IMG/VR virus record: IMGVR_UViG_3300009124_000023 | Span: 1 to 51,643 of that record | Length of the DNA: 51,643 bases | From: a virus | Direction: 5' to 3' (one strand) | Part shown: piece after piece, positions 21,201 to 51,643 of the stretch | How positions within the stretch are numbered: position 1 is the stretch's first letter | How the letters are laid out: the number at the start of each line of letters is the position of its first letter | Notes under the pieces: generated by a model | The model's input: the letters and a program-made list of their open reading frames with translations, nothing else | The model's database searches: none | Told to the model about the DNA's origin: nothing | Position numbers and translations under genes: made by a program

Positions 21201-21978
21201 ATTAAGTAAAGCAGCTTTTAAAGTAATGAATAGAGATGTTTTAATACCTCAAGTAGGTAATAGGATGTTGTTTGCCCAAAGTCAAAATCCATACATTAGA
21301 AGTTTTGGACTATTTTTATCATGGGCACAGGCTAAAACATCACAGTTAAATGGTTTGATATCTAGAGTAGAATCAGGTGACGCTAAGTTAGCTTTAAAAA
21401 TGATGGGTGCTATAACTGTATTTGGTGGCTTGAGAGAGTTACAAATCATGGCAAGTCCTGCTCAAAAATATTATGCTGAAAATGAACCACCAAACTTTAG
21501 TGCAAAATGGTGGCAAGAAGCTGCTCAGTTATCAGGAAATGTAGATTGGAGAATTGAAAAATTTGCTAGGTTCTTTGGGGGACCTTCATTACGAAACCCT
21601 ATTGAAAATTTAAGTCCAGCTGTAGCTCAAGCAAGTAGAATTTTAGCAGCTCCATCAAAAATAAAAGCTAATATTGATGAAGGAGATTACGAGGGAGTTT
21701 TAGTTCAATTATTTAGACCAACACCAATAAATGAAATTACAGCTAGAGTATTAGAAGATGAGCCGAATAGAGAAGAAAAGAAAAAAGGTTTATCACAAAG
21801 AGCAGGTTTTAGTGTTGGTGGAGAAGTAAGAAAACAATACTTTGAAGGTCAAAAAGTTTCAAAAGATTATCCAGTTAGTGATGTCGAAGATATTCCAGCC
21901 GATAGAATCAATCCTTATACTGGCGAATCTTACTCAGGTAAAACAGAACTAGAGAAACAAATGGAAGAATTAATATAA
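18262..21978 (+). CDS. Large internal virion protein, 1238 residues
   Basis: The longest protein of the ejection-protein group. Two copies of an N-K-Y-L-x-L-Y-Y-x-x-E-E motif lie near residues 9 and 75, then hydrophobic helical segments around 175-250 and 425-470, and a long Lys-rich helical body. There is no transglycosylase or peptidase motif that I can recognise. T7-like phages use proteins of this size and place in the operon (gp15/gp16) to build the periplasm-spanning ejection channel; that analogy is inference. The stop overlaps the lysozyme ATG. Confidence 0.7.
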   Translation: MVNESDIINKYLSLYYSEEEEKEDKYKEQLEQLEDIGETPIEYPEIEEPPVEQVVQAEQIQEDIIPDSDTNIVNKYLDLYYKQEETPFRAEILPQPEDSEVTVAQKTELGVRLEKTTLGNLWNLFKAGSLSLSNNKSLTDNIKLIEEERINKVYQDMQEKYGIDFRASENDAAVFAGRALVALGDPVTFFLPWAKFAKLGLLKNAAIGSGIASADMALYDYATNGEVNPNNVLFAAGLGGVSSAAGTVIANRVFGPKDKNINLGKLDGDENVVVQSTAKDNPVVTLNLKDSEALDDVAGKVATEYQALFKEMESTVHLNTMLTKAQADIKAYKDALKIIDKAADKSGQLELPILNKIKPVSPQKLSALKKKRDEAIKFINDDLPEVMGKYARGQVDLLDATFKKLHERPQYEISQNVLRGVLDNFTRPFLGAGVGFSIGTFLNDDDEYGLPISFMMAGAGLGAAQKWMQKTPYLTKGMKEEGLSILENNQMIALHNFLKVQSAGTLASKGIAHGGQNETLARMLFHIQDGKQRNIFSAEQATDAFNSYFSKEINKVVGNSSLNQQRAAWRIVRELDTEQGVIKKFNLTDDDMLNVRTLVKNTNEFKNMFNNGYVRKAGVSFGEIENYGLPQFYNDKIFSDASGFKKAIRAAIKEEDSDIITKFGKDKVKLKKYLDKRTDDIFNNMTGRGATKVFDENEKFTGIPLLKNFEKKRYFKKLSAVKKLEPYLEDNLHNVLIQWTRNTTKGVEFARKFGQRGELLKQLKYNLRSDYRAGKLSEAQYKSKRELLENTVNAYFGTHGGRVSDGHKTLMSILTFLSNTTMLPRAAIAQMGDFIQPLQNSSSGAAIRGIFSKFRKDRNFADQAGIANKSSSTIEKDIEALYTAGVNPNTQIQLLLGNWTRKFFKLNLMAPLTDRGARFAYNVGVEDAFLMAKKNANKTKLGKATVEKLQFMSLDKNELKYLNKFDKVTDAWNDSTGRSLLSKAAFKVMNRDVLIPQVGNRMLFAQSQNPYIRSFGLFLSWAQAKTSQLNGLISRVESGDAKLALKMMGAITVFGGLRELQIMASPAQKYYAENEPPNFSAKWWQEAAQLSGNVDWRIEKFARFFGGPSLRNPIENLSPAVAQASRILAAPSKIKANIDEGDYEGVLVQLFRPTPINEITARVLEDEPNREEKKKGLSQRAGFSVGGEVRKQYFEGQKVSKDYPVSDVEDIPADRINPYTGESYSGKTELEKQMEELI

Positions 21979-22433
21979 TGAATATAGAACTATGCAAACA
22001 AGAAATAAAAAGACACGAGGGCGAACTACTCGAAGTCTATGTCGATTCTTTGGGTTACAAAACCTTAGGAGTAGGGCATTTAATACAGCCACAAGACCCC
22101 GAACATGGTTGGGAAGTTGGTACTCCAATAACTCAAGAAGTATCTGACATATATTTTGAAGACGATTTCAATAAACATTTAGTAGAGGCGATACATGTGT
22201 TTGGTGAAGAAGAATCTTTTTATTTATTACCAGATGCTATTCAAAGAGTCTTGGTTAATATGTGCTTTAACTTAGGCGGTACAAGATTAAGCAAATTTCA
22301 AAACATGTTGAAAGCTTGTCGGTCACATGATTGGCAAGAAATGGCAAATCAAATGGAAGATAGTAAGTGGTTTAGACAAGTGGGACGAAGAAGTAAAGAG
22401 TTAAAAGAATTAGTATTAGGAGAAGTAAAATGA
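21978..22433 (+). CDS. Endolysin, T4-type lysozyme (GH24)
   Basis: A 151-residue muramidase cutting the MurNAc-GlcNAc bond of peptidoglycan. The catalytic triad has exact T4 lysozyme spacing: E14, D23 and T29 (9 and 6 residues apart), in the context H-E-G and D-S-L-G-Y-K-T-L-G-V-G-H. A late R-V-L-V-N-M-C-F-N-L-G segment is also family-typical. There is no signal peptide, so release depends on the adjacent holin. ATGA overlap with the holin start. Confidence 0.93.
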   Translation: MNIELCKQEIKRHEGELLEVYVDSLGYKTLGVGHLIQPQDPEHGWEVGTPITQEVSDIYFEDDFNKHLVEAIHVFGEEESFYLLPDAIQRVLVNMCFNLGGTRLSKFQNMLKACRSHDWQEMANQMEDSKWFRQVGRRSKELKELVLGEVK

Positions 22434-22903
22434 AAAACTTATTAAAGAATATCGTTGGTGCAGTTGCTCCTACTCTAGGTACTGCTTTAGGCGGTCCTAT
22501 GGGCGGTATGGCTGCGAATATGATTGCCGATGTGCTTGGGTGTCCAAATAACCCTAAAGCCATTGAGAAAGCCGTTGCTGAAGCCACACCAGAGCAGATG
22601 CTAGAACTTAAAAAAGCTGAACAAGCTTTTGAAGTACAGATGAAAGAGTTAGATGTTGATGTCTACAGATTAGAAGTAGCAGATACTCAAGATGCTAGAA
22701 AGAACTTTAGTAAAGACTGGACAGCCCGTATCATGGGTATAGCTACAGTCGGTGGTTTCTTAGGTTACATATTCTTAGTAACCCTACAGCCACCAGAACA
22801 GAACTCTGAAGCTCTTATTAACCTTGTTTTAGGTTACTTAGGAGGTTTGGCAAGTGCTGTAATATCTTTCTACTTTGGAGCTTCAAACTCAAGTAATAAG
22901 TAG
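22430..22903 (+). CDS. Holin, three-helix type
   Basis: A 157-residue protein with a hydrophobic N-terminal segment (residues 5-38), a charged helix with D-V-D-V-Y-R-L-E-V-A-D-T-Q-D-A-R, and two C-terminal membrane helices ending in I-S-F-Y-F-G-A-S-N-S-S, which is typical of a common phage/GTA holin family. It would time lysis and let the endolysin reach the wall. Flanked by lysozyme and a one-TM coiled-coil protein. Confidence 0.88.
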   Translation: MKNLLKNIVGAVAPTLGTALGGPMGGMAANMIADVLGCPNNPKAIEKAVAEATPEQMLELKKAEQAFEVQMKELDVDVYRLEVADTQDARKNFSKDWTARIMGIATVGGFLGYIFLVTLQPPEQNSEALINLVLGYLGGLASAVISFYFGASNSSNK

Positions 22904-23253
22904 TGGAAGAGATAGTCACTATAATACAACAAGTAGGTTTTCCTATTGCTGCGGCATTAGGGCTAGGTTGGTTTATTTACAAACTAATCATGCGTATTGT
23001 CGATGGTATGGAAACCAAACTTGATGTTGTTGATGAGAAAGTAGCTGAACAAATAACAGCTATGGAACAGAGACTAGGGACAAAGTTAGATAGTCAATAC
23101 GGCATTATTGTTAGTCTGATTGACAGAGTGAGGGCTTTGGACAATCAAACGATTAGACAAGACGTTCTTTTGAAAACATTGCTGGGTGTGCCAAATTTAA
23201 TAGATTTAGAAAAAGTTGCAAAAGCAGATAGAGATGACCAAAGAAAAGATTAA
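22903..23253 (+). CDS. Lysis-accessory membrane/coiled-coil protein
   Basis: A 116-residue protein with GTG start overlapping the holin TAG by one base. One membrane segment (residues 12-30, G-F-P-I-A-A-A-L-G-L-G-W-F) is followed by a charged coiled coil. This plan recurs directly after holins in marine phages and may represent an antiholin or inner spanin subunit; the sequence does not decide which. It is the last gene before the curli-like cassette. Confidence 0.75.
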   Translation: MEEIVTIIQQVGFPIAAALGLGWFIYKLIMRIVDGMETKLDVVDEKVAEQITAMEQRLGTKLDSQYGIIVSLIDRVRALDNQTIRQDVLLKTLLGVPNLIDLEKVAKADRDDQRKD

Positions 23254-23266
23254 GGAGAAGTTAGAA

Positions 23267-23722
23267 ATGAAAATATTAGTAACAACATTTATCGTGTTGC
23301 TGTTAGGTGTTAATGGTAATTTAATTGCAGATGAAATAGTGCATAAATTTAAATCACCTTCCTTCAGTGGTATAGGTACTTCAGCTCATTATCTAACAAT
23401 AGAGAATCAAGAGTTCAATAGAAAGGAAGCCAACAAAGCAGAACTCAAAGCCTACAAAGAACAGCTTAAAAGAGAAGCTGAGAATACCACACTTGCAAGA
23501 TTTATTAGAAACTTAGAGTCTAGAATCTATGCACAATTATCAAGACAACTTGTTGATGCTTTATTTGGTGAGGACCCAAGTACAAGCGGAACATTAGAGC
23601 TATTAGGAAATACCATTGAATACAGTGTCAGTGAAGATGGCACCATGATAACTTTAACAATCACAGATGCAGAAGGGAATACTACAGAGATTACTGTTCC
23701 TATCGGTTCTTTTACTTTCTAG
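23267..23722 (+). CDS. csgF: CsgF-like curli assembly factor
   Basis: Start set at 23267, where AAGGAG lies 7-8 bases upstream and the product begins with a clean signal peptide (about 20 residues, ending N-L-I-A-D-E); longer in-frame starts overlap the previous gene and lack a ribosome site. The mature 130-residue protein keeps the CsgF layout: an N-terminal F-K-S-P-S-F-S-G segment matching the F-R-N-P-N-F-G-G that in E. coli plugs the CsgG pore, a helical middle, and a C-terminal beta domain with D-A-E-G-N-T-T-E-I-T-V-P. In bacteria CsgF sits on CsgG at the outer membrane and couples secretion to fibre nucleation. Confidence 0.87.
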   Translation: MKILVTTFIVLLLGVNGNLIADEIVHKFKSPSFSGIGTSAHYLTIENQEFNRKEANKAELKAYKEQLKREAENTTLARFIRNLESRIYAQLSRQLVDALFGEDPSTSGTLELLGNTIEYSVSEDGTMITLTITDAEGNTTEITVPIGSFTF

Positions 23723-24485
23723 TTGTACAAGCTGGAGGCATTCTGGTCTGTTAGATGAGGATATTCCCGGAGCTTATTCAAAGAGACAAGCAAGTACTGT
23801 TTTAGAATTACAATCTCAAGAATTATACAATCTACCAGCGGCTAAAGTTAAGCCGACTATTGCTATATATCCTAATAGTTTTACAGACTTAACAGGACAA
23901 CGTAAGAGTAATAGTACCTTTGCTTTGTTTAGCTCAGCAATAACACAGTCACCAGATGCATTTTTAATTAGAGCTTTTAAACATGCTGCAGGTGGTAAGT
24001 TTTTTACAGTTGTTGAACGTATAGGTTTAGATAACCTGACAAAAGAACGACAAATAATTAGAACAACTCGGCAGGACTTTGATGACGATACCGAACTCAA
24101 TCCTTTAATCTTTGCTGGGTTATTAGTTCAAGGTGGTGTTATAGGTTATGACACTAATTTGAAAAGTGGTGGACGAGGAGCCAGATACTTAGGTGTCGGT
24201 CAAAGCCGCCAGTATCGTGAAGATACAGTTACAGTTTCTTTGCGATTGGTTTCTGTTAATACAGGGGAAGTATTATTAGAAGTCCTGACATCTAAGACTA
24301 TTCTATCTGTTGGAGTATCTAGTGATGTCTTTAGATTCTATGAAGCTGGGACTAAGTTAGTGGAATTAGAATCTGGTGTAGCACAAAATGAAAGTGTTTC
24401 TATTGCCCTCCAAAAAGCGATAGAGACAAGTGTACTAGAAATAGTACGACAAGGAATAGAGAGGAGATATTGGAGATATGAATAG
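23667..24485 (+). CDS. csgG: CsgG-like outer-membrane curli secretion channel lipoprotein
   Basis: A 272-residue lipoprotein, about the length of E. coli CsgG (277). Signal peptide 1-19 with lipobox L-S-S-C20. Residues N-L-T-K-E-R-Q-I-I-R and later I-G-Y-D-T-N-L-K-S-G-G-R-G-A-R-Y and T-S-K-T-I-L-S align almost word for word with E. coli CsgG. CsgG forms a nonameric 36-strand beta-barrel that exports curli subunits. In the pore-constriction loop the E. coli Phe56 position appears conserved, while the Tyr51/Asn55 positions are changed. Its signal-peptide coding region lies inside the 3' end of csgF (56-base overlap). No frameshift or truncation. Confidence 0.93.
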   Translation: MQKGILQRLLFLSVLLLSSCTSWRHSGLLDEDIPGAYSKRQASTVLELQSQELYNLPAAKVKPTIAIYPNSFTDLTGQRKSNSTFALFSSAITQSPDAFLIRAFKHAAGGKFFTVVERIGLDNLTKERQIIRTTRQDFDDDTELNPLIFAGLLVQGGVIGYDTNLKSGGRGARYLGVGQSRQYREDTVTVSLRLVSVNTGEVLLEVLTSKTILSVGVSSDVFRFYEAGTKLVELESGVAQNESVSIALQKAIETSVLEIVRQGIERRYWRYE

Positions 24486-25182
24486 ATTACTTTTTTTAAT
24501 TGCTTTAGTAGGCTTTGTTGTAAAAGCTGATAATGAAATATATATTAATCAAGTTGGTGCAACTCTTAACTTAGACGTTGAACAGCTTGGTAGCTCTAAC
24601 ATCATAGGCGGACTTGATGCAGTAACAGGGACGATGACTGCATTTAATTTAACTGGTGCTAATATGACGTTGGACATCAATCAACTTGGTGATACTAACA
24701 AATTCTTAGGTGACATAGTACTGGATTCTTTAACAGGTTTCTTTGAGTTTGATGGTGATAGCAACAACTTTGAAATACAAGTAGACCCAACCAATACTTA
24801 TAGTGCCGATGGTGGTAACTATTATGTTGATGTTACAGGGTCCAGCAATGACTTTGAATTAAACATTGCTACAAATGCTTTATCAGAATATCTAGACTTA
24901 GATTGGATTATTAATGGTGATAGTAACCAACTGGATTTTACTATTGATATTGATAGTGCCACATCTTATGTCGATATAGATGGTGACTCAAACATTGTTA
25001 ATTATACAGGTAGTGGTTATGCTGGTGGTTATTTTTACTTAGACCAAACAGGTAACAGCAGAACCTTTAATATTACACAAGCATCAACCTTAGCAAGTGA
25101 TTGGCTCAAGATTACTTCTTCTGGTAATAGTGGTACTGTGTGTGTCGTTCAAAACGATGGCGGCACAAGCACAAGCTGCTAG
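24478..25182 (+). CDS. Curlin-repeat (CsgA/CsgB-like) secreted protein
   Basis: A 234-residue protein with a signal peptide (residues 1-17, ending V-K-A). The mature part opens with two curlin-type units (I-N-Q-V-G and V-E-Q-L-G-S-S-N; then D-I-N-Q-L-G-D-T-N) and continues with six more G-[DSN]-S-[NRG] turns spaced about 20-30 residues apart, each flanked by alternating hydrophobic strands. This is the strand-turn rhythm of curli amyloid subunits, here longer and Asp-rich. Two Cys lie in the last 15 residues. It overlaps csgG by 8 bases with GAGAGGAG upstream. Its place after csgF-csgG makes it the likely substrate of the channel (inference). Confidence 0.75.
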   Translation: MNRLLFLIALVGFVVKADNEIYINQVGATLNLDVEQLGSSNIIGGLDAVTGTMTAFNLTGANMTLDINQLGDTNKFLGDIVLDSLTGFFEFDGDSNNFEIQVDPTNTYSADGGNYYVDVTGSSNDFELNIATNALSEYLDLDWIINGDSNQLDFTIDIDSATSYVDIDGDSNIVNYTGSGYAGGYFYLDQTGNSRTFNITQASTLASDWLKITSSGNSGTVCVVQNDGGTSTSC

Positions 25183-26209
25183 TATCGGAAGTATTACAGA
25201 ACTAAAAGGCATAGGCAGAGTAGTAAGGGAACAAGACCCTTTCTCTGCTGCCCTTGCTTTTGGTATTAATAGTTTTGACAACGTTGAAACTTCCAATGGT
25301 CGGATAGGTATAACCTTTCTAGATGAATCTCAAGTTCGTCTAACCGAACATTCACAACTCGTTATAGATGAATTTATCTATGACCCTGACCCATCTAAAT
25401 CTAAGATGGCTCTCAAGTTTGCTAGTGGTACAGCTCGTTTTATTACCGGTAAACTTGCCACTATAAACAAAGAAAATATCCAGATAGAAACTCCTAGTGC
25501 CACTATAGGTATTAGAGGTACTGACTTTACAGTGACTGTAGATGAGCTTGGTAGGTCCTTAATAATTTTACTACCAAAGGAAGATGGACTCTCTTCAGGC
25601 GAAATAGTTGTCTCAACTGCTGCGGGACAAGTAGTGCTTAATAAGCCCTATGAAGCTACCACAGTAGAGCTGTTTGAGTCAGCACCAAGTAGACCAGTCA
25701 TATTAGACTTAACTCTGGATATTATTGACAACATGTTGATAGTTAATCCACCGAAACGAGACCCTAACTTTATTAATGAAGGGGAACAAGCAGAAGGTTC
25801 AGATAATATCTTAGATGTTGATTACCTAGAGTTTGATGAACTAGAAACAGATTACTTAGCTCAAGACGAACTAGAGTTTAGTGAACTCGATATTAATTAT
25901 TTAGATGTCAACTTCTTAGAAGACTTACTAGATATTATTGAAGAAGCCGATGAGCTGGAAAAGAATCAGCTCTCAGGAGGCGATATAGACGTGAAGGGTA
26001 CATCCTTTGGTTACGATGGTACCACTCAAGTCAATACATTTATTACGGATTCAGTCATAACCTTTTACCGACAGGTACAAGATACAGTTAGGTTGGACTT
26101 AGATACCGGCAACAGTTATACAGTTTTAATTATACAAGATGGCAAAGCAGTTACTATTACTCTTAATGGCGGTGGTAACTCTTCCATTACTATCAAGCAA
26201 TCTCAGTGA
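25097..26209 (+). CDS. Secreted FecR-domain protein with acidic pentad repeats
   Basis: Start chosen at GTG 25097 because it supplies a signal peptide (residues 1-27, ending A-Q-A) while the first internal ATG does not; this puts 86 bases over the end of the curlin-like gene. Residues 30-190 are a FecR domain: V-x-T-x-x-x-G-R-I-G-I-T-F-L-D-E-S-Q-V-R-L and T-P-S-A-T-I-G-I-R-G-T-D-F are the family's signature. Residues about 238-280 form eight five-residue units of the x-[DSN]-[YEF]-L-[EDA] kind. A beta-rich C-terminal domain (300-370) follows. FecR domains act in the periplasm or at the surface, often paired with membrane signalling proteins; the cyclase two genes on is a natural partner (inference). 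Confidence 0.85.
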   Translation: MIGSRLLLLVIVVLCVSFKTMAAQAQAASIGSITELKGIGRVVREQDPFSAALAFGINSFDNVETSNGRIGITFLDESQVRLTEHSQLVIDEFIYDPDPSKSKMALKFASGTARFITGKLATINKENIQIETPSATIGIRGTDFTVTVDELGRSLIILLPKEDGLSSGEIVVSTAAGQVVLNKPYEATTVELFESAPSRPVILDLTLDIIDNMLIVNPPKRDPNFINEGEQAEGSDNILDVDYLEFDELETDYLAQDELEFSELDINYLDVNFLEDLLDIIEEADELEKNQLSGGDIDVKGTSFGYDGTTQVNTFITDSVITFYRQVQDTVRLDLDTGNSYTVLIIQDGKAVTITLNGGGNSSITIKQSQ

Positions 26210-26630
26210 TAAGCCTGATATATATTGGAAGATTACAAAAGCACCTTACAGTAAAGAATTTTTAGCACAACAACAAAAAGAAGAATTAATCTTTGTAGAA
26301 GATACTTTGTATCTACCAGAAAGAAAAACAGTATCTAATTGGGAATGGGGTTTGTTTTGGACCTTACAAGCTTTAGATATTTATACCACTACTAAAGTTT
26401 TGCAATACGATTGTGTTTATGAAGCAAATATTTTATTACCAAGAAAACCAGATTTAAATGATTTAGTGAGACATAAAGCACTTATCTTTATACCAACTTT
26501 TATATTCTTACCAGTTTATAAATTAAATGAAGGTGGATTAACATTTAGTAATACCTTGACTGCTGCTGTAGTTGCTAATAATTTTGCTGTTAATAAAAGA
26601 GCTAAAGCCAAAGGCTGTCAGAAACTATGA
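26139..26630 (+). CDS. Small membrane protein of the curli/cyclase cassette
   Basis: A 163-residue protein with a signal peptide or N-terminal membrane anchor (residues 2-20), encoded over the last 71 bases of the FecR gene. The central part has W-x-L-Q-A-L-D-I-Y-T-T-T-K and later Y-E-A-N-I-L-L-P, followed by two hydrophobic helices (residues about 108-125 and 135-150). The D-x-x-T-T ... E-A-N pattern resembles DUF5658-type membrane proteins, whose function is unknown. Position between FecR and cyclase suggests a shared signalling or envelope role. Confidence 0.7.
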   Translation: MAKQLLLLLMAVVTLPLLSSNLSDKPDIYWKITKAPYSKEFLAQQQKEELIFVEDTLYLPERKTVSNWEWGLFWTLQALDIYTTTKVLQYDCVYEANILLPRKPDLNDLVRHKALIFIPTFIFLPVYKLNEGGLTFSNTLTAAVVANNFAVNKRAKAKGCQKL

Positions 26631-28363
26631 AGTGGGCTAGTATATTATTATTATTTCTGACACTGCCTCTAGTGTTCAATGCTCCACCTCTGGAGATAAT
26701 GCGGCTCAAGACTTTTGATTATCTTGTCGAGACTCCAGAGCCTACAGGTTACTTTACTATCTTAAATATAGATGAAGAATATCTTGACAAACAAGGCGGT
26801 TATCCACTTCCTAGAGCCACATTAGCAGATATCCATCTAAAACTTTTACAAAAAGGTGCGTTAGGTGTTGGTTGGGTTATGTTGTTTCCCCATCCTGATA
26901 GGCTCGGTGGTGATGAAGACTTTGCCTACATGCTCAGCTTAGCTCCTAGTGTGATAGCTATGCCTGAAATAAATAATGACCAGTATCCAGAAACACATGG
27001 TACAGTTATACTTGGTCCTGATGTTACATTACCACAGGCTCAAGGCTTTTTAGAAAATATTCCCCTACTGAAAGAAGCATCTGCTCAAGGAGCAGTCTCA
27101 GTCCCTGTCGATGTCGATAACTTAGTCAGACAGATTCCTCTCATACAACAGACTCCAGAGGGCTGGGTAGCTTCCTTCGGTACAGAAGTATTAAAGATAC
27201 TAGGTGGTGGTAACACTTATCAAATTAAAACCAACGAGAATGGTATTGAGATGGTTAGAGTCAAGGGCATACCAGCTATACCCACAGATAGCCTAGGTAA
27301 GAAATGGATTAGTTGGGTTGATACTCCTCAAACAAATTTAACAGAGATGGATGTTGAAGGTAAGTTTGTCTTTGTTGGGTTTACAGCTAAAGGTATCATG
27401 CCACAAGTTGCAACTCCTGCAGGTTTGTTAGAACCTCATAAAATACAAGCAGCACTTGCAGAATCTATTTTATTAGAGACACCAAGTATTCCAGACTATA
27501 GATTAGTAGTTGAACTAATGTTATTAGTAGTCTCAGGCTTCATAGTTGCAGCTCTAATTAATTATTTAGGTATCACCTTAGGATTGACCTTAGTTACAAT
27601 TTACAAGACTGCTATCAGCTATTTAGGACTTTACCTCATTTCACAAAATGTGTTAATAGATGTAACTTGGACACTTGTTGCAACTTTTATAATCGCTTCA
27701 CAACAATTTTATTTAAACTTTAGAAAGCAATACAAACTAAGACAACAGATTAAAAAACAATTTGAACATTATCTTGACCCTAGACAAGTTAAAAGATTGC
27801 AAAGTAATCCAGAGTTGTTAAAACTAGGTGGCGAAAAAAGAAGATGTACTTTCTTGTTTACCGATGTAAGAGGTTTTACTTCTTTGTCTGAAAGACTAGA
27901 GCCAGAGGAAGTGACAGAGATAATGAACAAAGCTTTGACCATTCAAGCCAATGCAGTAAAAGCAAACGATGGTATGGTGGATAAGTATATTGGTGATGCG
28001 ATGATGGCGATATTCAATGCACCTTTAGATTTAGACAACCATGAAGACAGAGCTATTAAGACAGCTCTTCAAATAGCACACGACATGCAAGAAGCACAGT
28101 TAGGCATTGATATTGGTATCGGAATAAATACAGGCAAAGCTGTTGTAGGTAATATGGGTAGTTCTTCACGATTCGATTATACAGCTATAGGTGATGCAGT
28201 TAATTTAGCAGCTAGACTTGAAAGCTCAACCAAAGAAGTTCAACAAGATATTGTTATTGGTGAGGAGACTATGAAGGGTTCTTCCTACGATTTAGTTGCT
28301 TTAGAGCCTATAAAGGTCAAAGGTAAGGAAAAATCCATCAAAATCTACACAATTTTAGGCTAA
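26627..28363 (+). CDS. CHASE2-domain class III adenylate cyclase
   Basis: A 578-residue transmembrane sensor cyclase. Order: N-terminal membrane helix (4-18), extracytoplasmic CHASE2 domain (about 20-285), three membrane helices (about 292-360), linker, cytoplasmic class III catalytic domain (405-578). Catalytic residues are complete: metal ligands D413 (F-T-D-V-R-G-F) and D457 (K-Y-I-G-D-A), substrate-selecting K453 and T519 (Lys/Thr pair as in adenylate rather than guanylate cyclases), ribose-orienting N526 and transition-state R530. It should convert ATP to cAMP in response to an outside signal. The start overlaps the previous stop (ATGA). Full length, no sign of decay; last gene of the plus-strand operon. 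Confidence 0.93.
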   Translation: MKWASILLLFLTLPLVFNAPPLEIMRLKTFDYLVETPEPTGYFTILNIDEEYLDKQGGYPLPRATLADIHLKLLQKGALGVGWVMLFPHPDRLGGDEDFAYMLSLAPSVIAMPEINNDQYPETHGTVILGPDVTLPQAQGFLENIPLLKEASAQGAVSVPVDVDNLVRQIPLIQQTPEGWVASFGTEVLKILGGGNTYQIKTNENGIEMVRVKGIPAIPTDSLGKKWISWVDTPQTNLTEMDVEGKFVFVGFTAKGIMPQVATPAGLLEPHKIQAALAESILLETPSIPDYRLVVELMLLVVSGFIVAALINYLGITLGLTLVTIYKTAISYLGLYLISQNVLIDVTWTLVATFIIASQQFYLNFRKQYKLRQQIKKQFEHYLDPRQVKRLQSNPELLKLGGEKRRCTFLFTDVRGFTSLSERLEPEEVTEIMNKALTIQANAVKANDGMVDKYIGDAMMAIFNAPLDLDNHEDRAIKTALQIAHDMQEAQLGIDIGIGINTGKAVVGNMGSSSRFDYTAIGDAVNLAARLESSTKEVQQDIVIGEETMKGSSYDLVALEPIKVKGKEKSIKIYTILG

Positions 28364-45357: not shown

Positions 45358-45654
45358 ATGGCACACGAAGATAGAAAAGCATCAATGCTTAAAAGATACA
45401 AGCTGAAAGGAGTTAATAAACCTAAAAAAACTCCACAGCATCCAAAAAAGTCCCATATGGTGTTAGCTCAAGAAGGACATAAGTTAAAACTTATTCGTTT
45501 TGGCGAACAAGGTGCCAAGACAGCTGGTAAGCCTAAAGCAGGTGAATCAGAACGAATGAAGAAGAAACGTAAGAGTTTCAAAGCTCGTCATGCAAAGAAC
45601 ATTGCCAAAGGCAAGATGTCAGCCGCATATTGGGCAGATAAAGTAAAATGGTAA
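45358..45654 (+). CDS. Conserved basic marine-phage protein, 98 residues
   Basis: M-A-H-E-D-R-K-A-S-M-L-K-R-Y-K-L-K-G-V-N-K-P-K-K-T-P, then K-S-H-M-V-L-A-Q-E-G and a final R-H-A-K-N-I-A-K-G-K-M-S-A-A-Y-W-A-D-K-V-K-W. Very basic and likely nucleic-acid binding. Highly similar proteins occur near terminase genes in many marine phages, function unknown. Confidence 0.75.
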   Translation: MAHEDRKASMLKRYKLKGVNKPKKTPQHPKKSHMVLAQEGHKLKLIRFGEQGAKTAGKPKAGESERMKKKRKSFKARHAKNIAKGKMSAAYWADKVKW

Positions 45655-45727
45655 ACGTTCAAGCCTAATGGCTCGGAAGTAGACTGGTTGTAGTTGAAGG
45701 AACGCACATCTGATAAGGAGGTGCAGT
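45655..45727 (+). other. Possible structured leader before a short coding sequence
   Basis: A 73-base gap with CGTTC (45656-45660) paired to GAACG (45700-45704) and an inner AGCC/GGCT hairpin (45662-45665, 45670-45673), then a perfect AAGGAGGTG ribosome site. It may be a translation-control element for the 33-residue gene that follows. Confidence 0.35.
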
Positions 45728-48546: not shown

Positions 48547-50787
48547 ATGGCAGAAGATAACAACAACGAAAATTCTTTTTTAAATGCCGACTACATCTAT
48601 GAAGATGTTGAAGGTGAAGCAGGAAAAAATTTAAATCTCATTCCTGACCAAAAGAATAATTTAGTCGGACTTATTCAAAGTCGTTTTACTGTTGCTGAAG
48701 AAGCTAGAGACGTTGATGAACGTAGATGGCTTGAAGCCTATGAAAACTACAGAGGACTTTACGGCAAACGTGTTAAGTTTAGAGAATCCGAAAAGTCTCG
48801 TATCTTTATTAAGATAACAAAAACAAAAGTACTAGCTGCTTTTGGTCAATTAGTCGATGTACTATTTGGCACAGGTAAGTTTCCTATTGGTATTAGTGAA
48901 ACTAAAATACCTGAGGGTGAAAGAGAAGATGCTCATTTAGATTTTCAAAATCCACAACCCGGTATCGAAACTTCACAACCTGAGCAAATGCCTGACAATA
49001 TTGGTAATCTTGTCGGTGGTCCATTTGACATAGGTTATGAAGGTGATGGTAAAGTTCTGAAACCGGGAGCTACATTTGGCGATGGGATGTTTGAAGAATC
49101 TGAACAATCCTTAGAAGACAAAGCTGAACAATTAGGCATCTTACGAGAAGGTACTTCACCAGACCCACAAAAGTTAGAACTATCTCCAGCACAAAGAGCT
49201 GCGAGAAGAATGGAAAAATTAATCCATGACCAAATTGAAGAATCAAATGGTTCTTCTGAAATGAGAAGTGCATTACTAGAATCAGCACTATTAGGAACAG
49301 GAATTATTAAGGGTCCTTTTAATTTCAACAAAACTCTTAATAATTGGCAAGTTAATGAAGAAGGTGAAAGAGTATATTCACCTGTCAAGGTTAGAGTACC
49401 GAGAATTGAATTTGTAAGTTGCTGGGACTTTTACCCAGACCCCGGTGCAACTAATATCGAAGAATGTGAGTATATTATTCATAGACATAGAATGAATACT
49501 TCACAGTTAAGAGCATTGAAAAACATGCCTTACTTTGATAACGATGCTATCCGTGAAGCAATTCAAAATGGTCCTAACTACATAGAAAAAGACTTTGAAA
49601 GTCAAATCAAGGACGACTACTCTCCTGAAGAAGCATACTCAAATGCGTTTGAAGTAGTTGAATACTGGGGTATCATGGATGCTCAGTATGCTAGAGAAGT
49701 AGGTATCGAACTTGAAGATGACATAGACGATTTAGATGAAGTGCAAGTTAATGCATGGATTTGTGGTGATAAGTTATTAAGGGCGGTAATTAACCCATTC
49801 ACACCTTACAGAATACCTTATCATGCTTTCCCATACGAAAGGAATCCTTATAATTTCTTTGGTGTTGGAGTAGCTGAGAATATGAATGATTCACAGCAGA
49901 TTATGAATGGTCATGCAAGAATGGCTATTGATAACCTTGCTTTGTCTGGTTCTTTGGTATTTGACATAGATGAATCAGCTTTGGTAGCTGGTCAGAATAT
50001 GGAAATATATCCCGGTAAAATCTTTAGAAGACAAGCTGGGATGCCGGGACAAGCCATTTATGGTTTAAAGTTCCCAAACACTGCACCTGAAAACATGATG
50101 ATGTTTGATAGGTTTAGACAGTTAGCGGATGAGCAAACAGGTATACCAAGTTACTCACATGGTCAAACAGGAGTACAAAGTATGACAAGAACTGCTTCCG
50201 GTATGTCAATGTTATTAGGAGCAGCAAGTTTAAACATTAAAACAGTTGTTAAGAATCTTGACGACTTTTTATTGAAGCCTTTAGGAGAAGCTTATTTCGC
50301 ATGGAATATGCAATTCTTTGAAGGTGATTTAGACGTTAAAGGTGATTTAGAAGTTAAGGCTACTGGTACCAATAGCTTGATGCAGAAAGAAGTTAGAAGT
50401 CAAAGATTGACAATGTTCTTACAAACTGCACAAAGTCCAGCCATTGCACCATTTGTTAAGATTTCTAAGTTGGTTAGTGAACTTGCCTACAGTCTTGATT
50501 TGGACCCTGATGAAATACTCAATGACCCAGAAGAGGCTGCAATGATGGCACAAATAATAGGTATGCAAAATGTTAGACAAGAAACTGGCGAAGAAGCTCA
50601 ACCTCTTGGTGAACAACCGGGAGCTATGGGAGGCATTCAAGGAACACCTCAACAACCAACGGAACTTGGACCTACAGGCACTGGTGGTGGCAACATCGGA
50701 GTTGGAAATGTACCGGTTGCAGGGGAAGATTCGTTTAGTGGGACAGTTGGAGCAGTTACAGCAGCAGGTGCAGGAAGCCCTGAATAG
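48547..50787 (+). CDS. Portal protein, complete copy
   Basis: A 746-residue portal of the short-tailed marine phage type. Long acidic N-terminal part (1-230, including a Pro/Glu-rich loop), central V-E-Y-W-G-I-M wing region and a stem/crown segment with Y-N-F-F-G-V-G-V-A-E-N-M-N-D-S-Q-Q (residues about 435-452) that is well conserved. The C-terminal tail is Gly/Pro/Gln-rich. Its last 294 residues are duplicated at the start of the window. Confidence 0.93.
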   Translation: MAEDNNNENSFLNADYIYEDVEGEAGKNLNLIPDQKNNLVGLIQSRFTVAEEARDVDERRWLEAYENYRGLYGKRVKFRESEKSRIFIKITKTKVLAAFGQLVDVLFGTGKFPIGISETKIPEGEREDAHLDFQNPQPGIETSQPEQMPDNIGNLVGGPFDIGYEGDGKVLKPGATFGDGMFEESEQSLEDKAEQLGILREGTSPDPQKLELSPAQRAARRMEKLIHDQIEESNGSSEMRSALLESALLGTGIIKGPFNFNKTLNNWQVNEEGERVYSPVKVRVPRIEFVSCWDFYPDPGATNIEECEYIIHRHRMNTSQLRALKNMPYFDNDAIREAIQNGPNYIEKDFESQIKDDYSPEEAYSNAFEVVEYWGIMDAQYAREVGIELEDDIDDLDEVQVNAWICGDKLLRAVINPFTPYRIPYHAFPYERNPYNFFGVGVAENMNDSQQIMNGHARMAIDNLALSGSLVFDIDESALVAGQNMEIYPGKIFRRQAGMPGQAIYGLKFPNTAPENMMMFDRFRQLADEQTGIPSYSHGQTGVQSMTRTASGMSMLLGAASLNIKTVVKNLDDFLLKPLGEAYFAWNMQFFEGDLDVKGDLEVKATGTNSLMQKEVRSQRLTMFLQTAQSPAIAPFVKISKLVSELAYSLDLDPDEILNDPEEAAMMAQIIGMQNVRQETGEEAQPLGEQPGAMGGIQGTPQQPTELGPTGTGGGNIGVGNVPVAGEDSFSGTVGAVTAAGAGSPE
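49906..50787 (+). repeat. Long repeat matching bases 1-882
   Basis: Same length, no indels, offset 49905, about 29 mismatches. Most differences fall in the first 520 bases; 512-823 of the first copy is identical to the second. It is the overlap produced when the contig closes on itself, with sequence from two variants. After the portal stop the two copies stop matching until near 1275 and 51535. Confidence 0.92.
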
Positions 50788-50799
50788 AAAAGAGGAAGC

Positions 50800-51643
50800 A
50801 TGAGAAATTTATTAGATGACGATAATAAAAGATTAGAAGGACCAGAACAAAGAGTTGTTGATTTTGGTATGCGAGACGACTATGTTAATCAAGGTATTTT
50901 AACAGGAATTATTAGTGAAGTTAAAATGATTAACAAATATAAAGATACTAAAAAATATGACAGTCCTGAAAAATTAGAAGCTCATCTAAATGAATATATA
51001 AATGAAGTAGCAGATAATACCAAAGATTTAGGTTCTCTTAATAAAGAAGTTATGAGGGATGAATTTAGAAAAGAACTTGGTATTTATGAAAAAAGAAAAG
51101 AATTAAAAGATGGTGGCGACCCAAACGAAGGTATAACAGAATTAAGGAAAGTTGCACCTGAAGTAGTTGAAAGAATGGGTTTTCAAGAGGGCGGCGAAAA
51201 TGATGCTCCAGAACTTGATAGAAAAATATACACAAGTCCTGAAAAGATAAAAGAATATGCAGATTATTATGGCATATCAGAGAAAGAAGTCATAGACAGA
51301 CATCAACAATGGAATTTAGGACAATGGCAAAACATATTTAAAAAAGTAGGATTTGATGTTGATAATGATTATGAATTAAATAGATTGCAAGATTATGGCG
51401 AAGGACAAACATTAAATACAAAACTTAAAAAAGAATTATTTAATAAATATAACCTACCTGAAGATTCATCAAAAGAAGATGTACTGGAATTTGTAAAAGA
51501 AGTAAGACCAGATTCTGCAGAAAAAGGTTTATTTGAAAGAGAACAAAAAGCTGAAGGTGGCGAAATGGAAATGCTACCTGACGAAGAAATGGAACAAAAC
51601 TTTATAGACTTTATAGTGGACGAAGCATTGTCCGAAGAAGAAG
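50800..51643 (+). CDS. Post-portal virion protein, second allele (truncated by window end)
   Basis: The frame is open to the end (281 codons). It starts M-R-N-L-L-D-D-D-N-K-R after AGAGGA and is unrelated to the N-terminal part of the 900-1880 protein: no EF-hand-like loop, instead a charged helical domain of 245 residues. From 51535 the two alleles become nearly identical (E-R-E-Q-K-A ... D-E-A-L-S-E-E-E), the second lacking 54 bases (18 codons) present in the first. A mosaic, domain-swapped version of the same gene. Confidence 0.85.
   Translation, partial: MRNLLDDDNKRLEGPEQRVVDFGMRDDYVNQGILTGIISEVKMINKYKDTKKYDSPEKLEAHLNEYINEVADNTKDLGSLNKEVMRDEFRKELGIYEKRKELKDGGDPNEGITELRKVAPEVVERMGFQEGGENDAPELDRKIYTSPEKIKEYADYYGISEKEVIDRHQQWNLGQWQNIFKKVGFDVDNDYELNRLQDYGEGQTLNTKLKKELFNKYNLPEDSSKEDVLEFVKEVRPDSAEKGLFEREQKAEGGEMEMLPDEEMEQNFIDFIVDEALSEEE

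Follow-up and report, generated by a model that had tools for sequence, protein, structure and literature searches.

The stretch of DNA analysed here (the window) is the record of a marine phage, IMGVR_UViG_3300009124_000023, of 51,643 nt. Between positions 23267 and 28363 it carries six ORFs, all on the plus strand, which a first-pass annotation made from the sequence alone had described as intact, co-directional and translationally packed. An ORF check of the window bears this out: all six are open and tightly packed, with overlaps of about 56, 8, 86, 71 and 4 nt, values which depend on the choice of start codon. The csgF gene likely starts at the ATG at 23267; a TTG at 23216 is a possible alternative. 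The cassette itself begins one gene earlier, at 22903, with a conserved 116 aa gene that the annotation overlooked (Table 1). Its list of six members thus holds for the core genes, but not for the 163 aa gene as a stable member.

Table 1. Genes of the phage cassette and its upstream context, with positions in the window.
Feature	Positions	Strand	Evidence
Phage lysozyme/endolysin; upstream context, outside cassette	21978..22433	+	PF00959 2.7e-9; phrog_7 endolysin 1e-17
Small membrane protein of 157 aa, its position and apparent hydrophobic segments holin-like; context	22430..22903	+	phrog_1544 6e-27 (function unknown)
Seventh cassette gene, 116 aa, TM and coiled coil	22903..23253	+	Adjacency to csgF
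CsgF	23267..23722	+	PF10614 4e-16
CsgG outer-membrane pore lipoprotein, lipobox LLSSC	23667..24485	+	PF03783 5e-48
Curlin-like secreted beta-repeat protein, presumed export substrate	24478..25182	+	Family profile vs curlin-repeat structures
Secreted FecR-domain protein	25097..26209	+	PF04773 4e-12
163 aa small membrane protein, accessory/variable	26139..26630	+	DUF5658-like, E 0.09, sub-threshold
CHASE2-class III adenylate cyclase	26627..28363	+	PF05226 4e-26; PF00211 (Guanylate_cyc) 2e-21

The domain assignments of the annotation stood up to profile searches, in which CsgF, CsgG, FecR, CHASE2 and Guanylate_cyc all exceed the Pfam curated cut-offs. CsgF, CsgG, FecR and the cyclase each fall into an existing PHROG family without assigned function, a first hint that the gene set had been seen earlier. 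The placement right after the lysis genes was also correct, the cassette standing behind the lysozyme. The 157 aa gene lies 5′ of the cassette in many loci and 3′ of the cyclase in others. Late expression of the cassette would be plausible; a scan of the cassette for promoters and terminators returned sites no more numerous than in shuffled sequence.

The first half of the cassette is concerned with export. CsgF is 44-46% identical to the CsgF proteins of HTVC008M and Melnitz and has no match among solved structures, while the CsgG profile matches solved CsgG structures at 1e-61. The claim that the third protein carries curlin repeats holds at the level of the family and fails for the window protein alone, which scores 8 bits against the Curlin_rpt cut-off of 20.7 in Pfam. 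A family profile was used for this reason: an alignment of 38 curlin-like relatives matches the curlin-repeat structures 8c50 (2e-10) and 8enq (0.0015), and Curlin_rpt is found at E<1 in 25 of the 38. The AlphaFold model of the protein is all-beta with about 18 strands (pLDDT 86.6, pTM 0.82), and a Foldseek fold search of the model against the PDB gave no significant match. A search for CsgE, the pore gate, found none, so the pore may be ungated.

This cassette is an instance of a curli (type VIII secretion) module already known from phages. CsgF-CsgG-CsgA/B-FecR-AC was described as the phage type VIII module from pelagimyophages and the genomes of nine HTVC023P-type podophages, in which one or two “histidine kinase” genes stand ahead of it; the module is expressed in metatranscriptomes and has an alphaproteobacterial origin (Wittmers et al., 2022; PMC9599517). 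The window has this defining order of CsgF, CsgG, curlin-repeat protein, FecR and AC, and HTVC008M and Melnitz (Kyanoviridae) encode CsgF, CsgG, curlin, FecR, a second curlin and the cyclase in the same order. The suggestion that a complete set including the cyclase might be less described was therefore wrong. The window shares with these modules the order of genes, a variable gene before the cyclase, one or two small ORFs ahead of csgF and the lack of CsgE. It differs in the lineage of its phage, in an upstream small gene that has no kinase domain and in the small membrane protein that replaces the second curlin of the myophages. Canonical bacterial curli systems (csgBAC, csgDEFG) have CsgF, CsgG and a curlin-repeat substrate in common with the phage cassette, the last recognised here by the family profile. 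In contrast to them, no CsgE was detected and no CsgD-type regulator is seen in the cassette; the phage operon holds FecR and a cyclase instead.

Cassette loci were collected by four scans of IMG/VR, and a survey of their gene neighbourhoods agrees with the expectation that related phages share the cassette: departures from the order csgF-csgG-curlin-FecR-AC are rare. The five core genes are under purifying selection, with dN/dS mostly 0.07-0.19 (about 0.10 for the curlin-like gene), ratios which are rough in the several cases where dS is above 1. Divergence is correlated among the core proteins (Spearman 0.76-0.89), which partly reflects the common ancestry of the phages. In a tree of concatenated CsgG, FecR, AC and CsgF from 107 cassettes, in which deep support is uneven and lineage labels come from flanking genes only, most podophage cassettes are separated from those of myophages, and cassettes flanked by the same genes as in the window fall, with few exceptions, into one group. 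This pattern points to a small number of transfers between lineages and to vertical descent thereafter.

The second half of the cassette resembles a signalling system of bacteria. The cyclase has the features of class III adenylate cyclases, namely two metal-binding Asp residues (D413 and D457), the adenine Lys (K453) and the transition-state Asn (N526) and Arg (R530). Residues D413, K453, D457, N526 and R530 are kept in 107, 106, 106, 103 and 106 of 107 sequences, respectively, and the active site is predicted to be intact as well as conserved. Clusters of CHASE2-AC and FecR have been independently reported in Campylobacterota (PMC9239204). Among 80 bacterial CHASE2-cyclase loci from one scan of a genome collection, 28 had a FecR gene, in most cases no more than 1.5 kb from the cyclase; these were found with the phage FecR profile, which can miss distant FecR proteins, and the loci are a sample, not a census. 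None of the 80 loci contained csg genes. Conversely, CsgF was above cut-off in 5 of 385 alphaproteobacterial genomes, and neither FecR nor a cyclase was detected within about 10 kb of those five csgFG loci. Curli export and FecR-CHASE2 signalling thus appear to be two separate bacterial modules which, in the samples taken, are joined only in phages. The bacterial pairs place the same two domain types side by side as the phage does; the phage version differs in being built into a curli module and in having a FecR protein with a curlin-like C-terminal signature.

Evidence from the rest of the genome places the cassette in a phage of a further lineage. About 0.9 kb at the two ends of the window overlap at ~97% identity, and more matching patches extend to 1.4 kb, meaning that the genome closes on itself. 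It is near-complete, about 50 kb long and either circular or permuted, and shows some variation between strains where the ends meet. Its TerL is 64% identical to those of the pelagiphages HTVC115P, HTVC104P and HTVC103P and about 47% to that of HMO-2011, and HTVC115P homologues were found for portal, capsid, PolA, NrdA and NrdB. With TerL, portal, capsid, PolA and RNR all related, the window phage belongs with the HTVC103P/HMO-2011-type phages. HTVC103P-type phages possess HMO-2011-type packaging modules (PMC8528129). CsgG, FecR and the cyclase have no match in cultured phages of this type, and curli are unmentioned in the literature examined on these groups. The cassette is thus placed in a phage lineage for which no earlier report of it was found, and which is different from the HTVC023P-type podophages and the pelagimyophages. 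The window's TerL occurs at 70-76% identity in 9 of 30 long contigs; some contigs of 55-64 kb are without it. Judged from phage kinship only, SAR11 or a relative is the probable host.

The first-pass annotation had raised the worry that a bacterial contaminant was joined to the phage by misassembly. Each part of the cassette does have bacterial homologues, and a bacterial fragment of this kind, or a passenger without function, would account for them. In many independent IMG/VR contigs, however, the arrangement lysozyme - 157 aa gene - 116 aa gene - csgF ... AC - nrdB/nrdA runs across both junctions. This recurrence, together with the closing genome, rules out the artefact, while dN/dS well under 1 and the failure to find both halves together in any bacterial locus sampled leave the wider idea of a fragment or passenger with a negligible probability.

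The 116 aa gene is a newly recognised and probably mislabelled extra member of the cassette. Its product has a single N-terminal TM/hydrophobic segment, a coiled coil, which would be cytoplasmic by the positive-inside rule, and a conserved C-terminal end, D-x-R-K-D. Of the 257 viral loci whose upstream sequence is long enough, 246 have one or two homologues adjoining csgF, 6 have them at another place on the contig and 5 lack them; two copies are present in 68. These counts include some loci fetched twice. In the reverse direction csgF accompanies the gene in 247/251 cases, a figure biased by the many loci fetched through CsgG. When IMG/VR was scanned with the 116 aa gene alone, a single-sequence query from a family short of conserved stretches, every locus with downstream room also had csgF. 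Among the 50,697 phage records of INPHARED, only HTVC008M and Melnitz phages encode near-full-length relatives. The divergence of this protein is less tied to that of the core (Spearman 0.58-0.65). Because position, size and a copy number of “sometimes two” agree, the gene is probably the “histidine kinase” (HK) of Wittmers et al. Neither HisKA nor HATPase was found in any of 13 family members, and the protein is predicted not to be a histidine kinase; it corresponds to the HK of the phage type VIII module by position and not by kinase identity.

The 163 aa gene behaves differently. No Pfam or PHROG family matches its product above threshold, and most relatives lack the gene or have another in its place. 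Its position is variable and its evolution fast, with a dN/dS of 0.63 in the single informative comparison. It occupies the site between FecR and AC where a second curlin is frequent, though not universal, in the module and where many relatives have nothing.

The phage “FecR” is a secreted FecR-domain protein and not an anti-sigma regulator. It consists of a signal peptide, a FecR domain (29-190), a disordered linker and a C-terminal beta domain ending in ITIKQ. The signal helix (3-19) leads directly into the FecR domain, whose model matches the cell-surface signalling domain of PupR (6ovk, E 8e-5), and the last 70 residues are modelled as a separate, confident beta domain after the linker. 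A FecR-type anti-sigma regulator was considered and rejected, since the protein has neither a cytoplasmic anti-sigma part nor a TM helix ahead of the FecR domain. The same features bear on the suggestion that the pore imports nutrients or large molecules such as siderophores and cofactors, with FecR as an iron-linked regulator (PMC7029224; PMC9599517). The name and fold of FecR speak for import; the signal peptide and missing anti-sigma part, the pairing of bacterial cyclase relatives with FecR-domain proteins and the presence of a curlin and CsgF, neither of which import requires, make it improbable.

The C-terminus of the FecR protein links it to the curlins. Its final Gln is invariant in an alignment of 52 sequences, members below 40% identity included. 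A strand ending in Gln (strand-Q) closes 187 of 188 distinct phage FecR sequences, 173/197 curlin-1 proteins (slightly looser pattern) and 21 of 32 second curlins, against a background in other ORFs of 1.2% (strict) and 3.6% (loose); the pattern was picked after viewing the sequences, and as these are related to one another the counts cannot be taken as independent events. Strand-Q is absent from the products of all 26 FecR genes in the vicinity of bacterial CHASE2 cyclases. In hhalign, the FecR tail and the curlins align in register at both C-termini with a probability of 6%. The tail was rejected as a proven curlin repeat given this value and the lack of Pfam or PDB support, and is kept as a signature only. 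As a lead, the FecR protein may dock on the fibre or share the export/assembly signal of the fibre.

The best explanation for the cassette, and a moderately probable one, is the export of a phage curlin-like fibre through CsgFG coupled to a FecR-CHASE2 circuit which reports the state of the fibre or envelope as cAMP. CsgG with CsgF would form an outer-membrane channel during infection and export the phage's own curlin-like protein, which by homology would probably assemble into beta-solenoid fibres on the infected cell. The FecR protein would cross the inner membrane, contact the periplasmic CHASE2 domain and set cytoplasmic cAMP production, a signalling pair we infer from the bacterial gene pairs and the intact active site. 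Because FecR and the curlins end in the common strand-Q signature, the FecR tail may dock on the fibre subunit or the pore, so that the cyclase would report the state of export or of the envelope. The payoff would most likely be an altered surface of the infected cell, through adhesion or aggregation (“sibling capture”) or the exclusion of other phages. The annotation's idea that the phage supplies both an export pore and the substrate for it, together with a cyclase that senses the surface, fits the evidence, its export part being well supported by the sequences and its circuit part more conjectural. In favour are the domain profiles, the order in HTVC008M and Melnitz and across IMG/VR, purifying selection, correlated divergence, the active site, the bacterial FecR-CHASE2 pairs and strand-Q. 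Counted against it are the absence of CsgE, the 6% hhalign probability of the FecR tail with curlins, a curlin model with no significant Foldseek match, a host that is itself inferred and the observation that no clumping was seen in Melnitz infection (PMC9004378).

A different role has been proposed for the CsgG of Melnitz, that of a pore in lysis, partly because its authors found no curlin gene (PMC9004378). Under such a scheme CsgG would mainly weaken or depolarise the envelope late in infection and time lysis, with the other genes regulating the pore. The missing CsgE gate agrees with this, as does the position of the cassette after a lysozyme and a holin-like gene in the window's lineage; in the myophages, however, the module lies away from lysis genes. 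Melnitz does have a curlin-like gene that scores above the Pfam curlin cut-off, weakening the argument from curlin absence, and a pore alone needs no curlin-like substrate, CsgF or FecR held in order under strong purifying selection. A lysis pore is accordingly judged unlikely, though less so than import.

Returning to fibre export with cAMP signalling, a more specific and tentative version, which we consider rather unlikely, makes FecR a fibre-linked transducer. Its tail would bind the fibre subunit or the CsgFG pore and its FecR domain CHASE2, converting the state of the phage fibre into cAMP, with the 116 aa TM/coiled-coil protein as inner-membrane partner. The module is widespread in ocean phages; curli genes are reportedly absent from hosts such as Pelagibacter. 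The window adds a further lineage that keeps the module and calls two labels into question, FecR as an iron regulator and the small gene as a histidine kinase. Together with these corrections, the C-terminal signature of FecR and the curlins yields testable predictions on binding and signalling.

The window represents a circular or permuted genome whose assembly mixes slightly different strains. Its ends (1-1437 and 49906-51643) overlap at ~97% with small indel differences, and the portal C-terminus is present twice. The glutamine riboswitch precedes the terminase and the remaining late + strand; glutamine riboswitches have been reported in the phage Melnitz too.

Positions of the small membrane protein genes (coordinates within each locus for relatives) and the riboswitch
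Feature	Location	Strand	Support
DUF5658-like small membrane protein, fast-evolving	window 26139-26630		
DUF5658-like small membrane protein, fast-evolving	L049:6821-7192		
DUF5658-like small membrane protein, fast-evolving	L010:10473-10922		
Glutamine riboswitch	window 45654-45708	+	RF01739, 52 bits

The second curlin-like protein of HTVC008M (L002:9971-11296) contains a PA14 domain (2.7e-6) alongside curlin repeats (5e-8), which suggests a possible glycan-binding part of the fibre.

These DUF5658-like small membrane proteins form one family with two placements, either the FecR-cyclase gap or close to the holin-like gene. The small TM/coiled-coil gene, which lies directly upstream of csgF in the window, is also found elsewhere: some relatives of the HTVC008M cassette (L172-L177) carry one copy inside the csgF-csgG interval, and a pair occurs at another contig position in L194, L195, L223, L226, L228 and L234.
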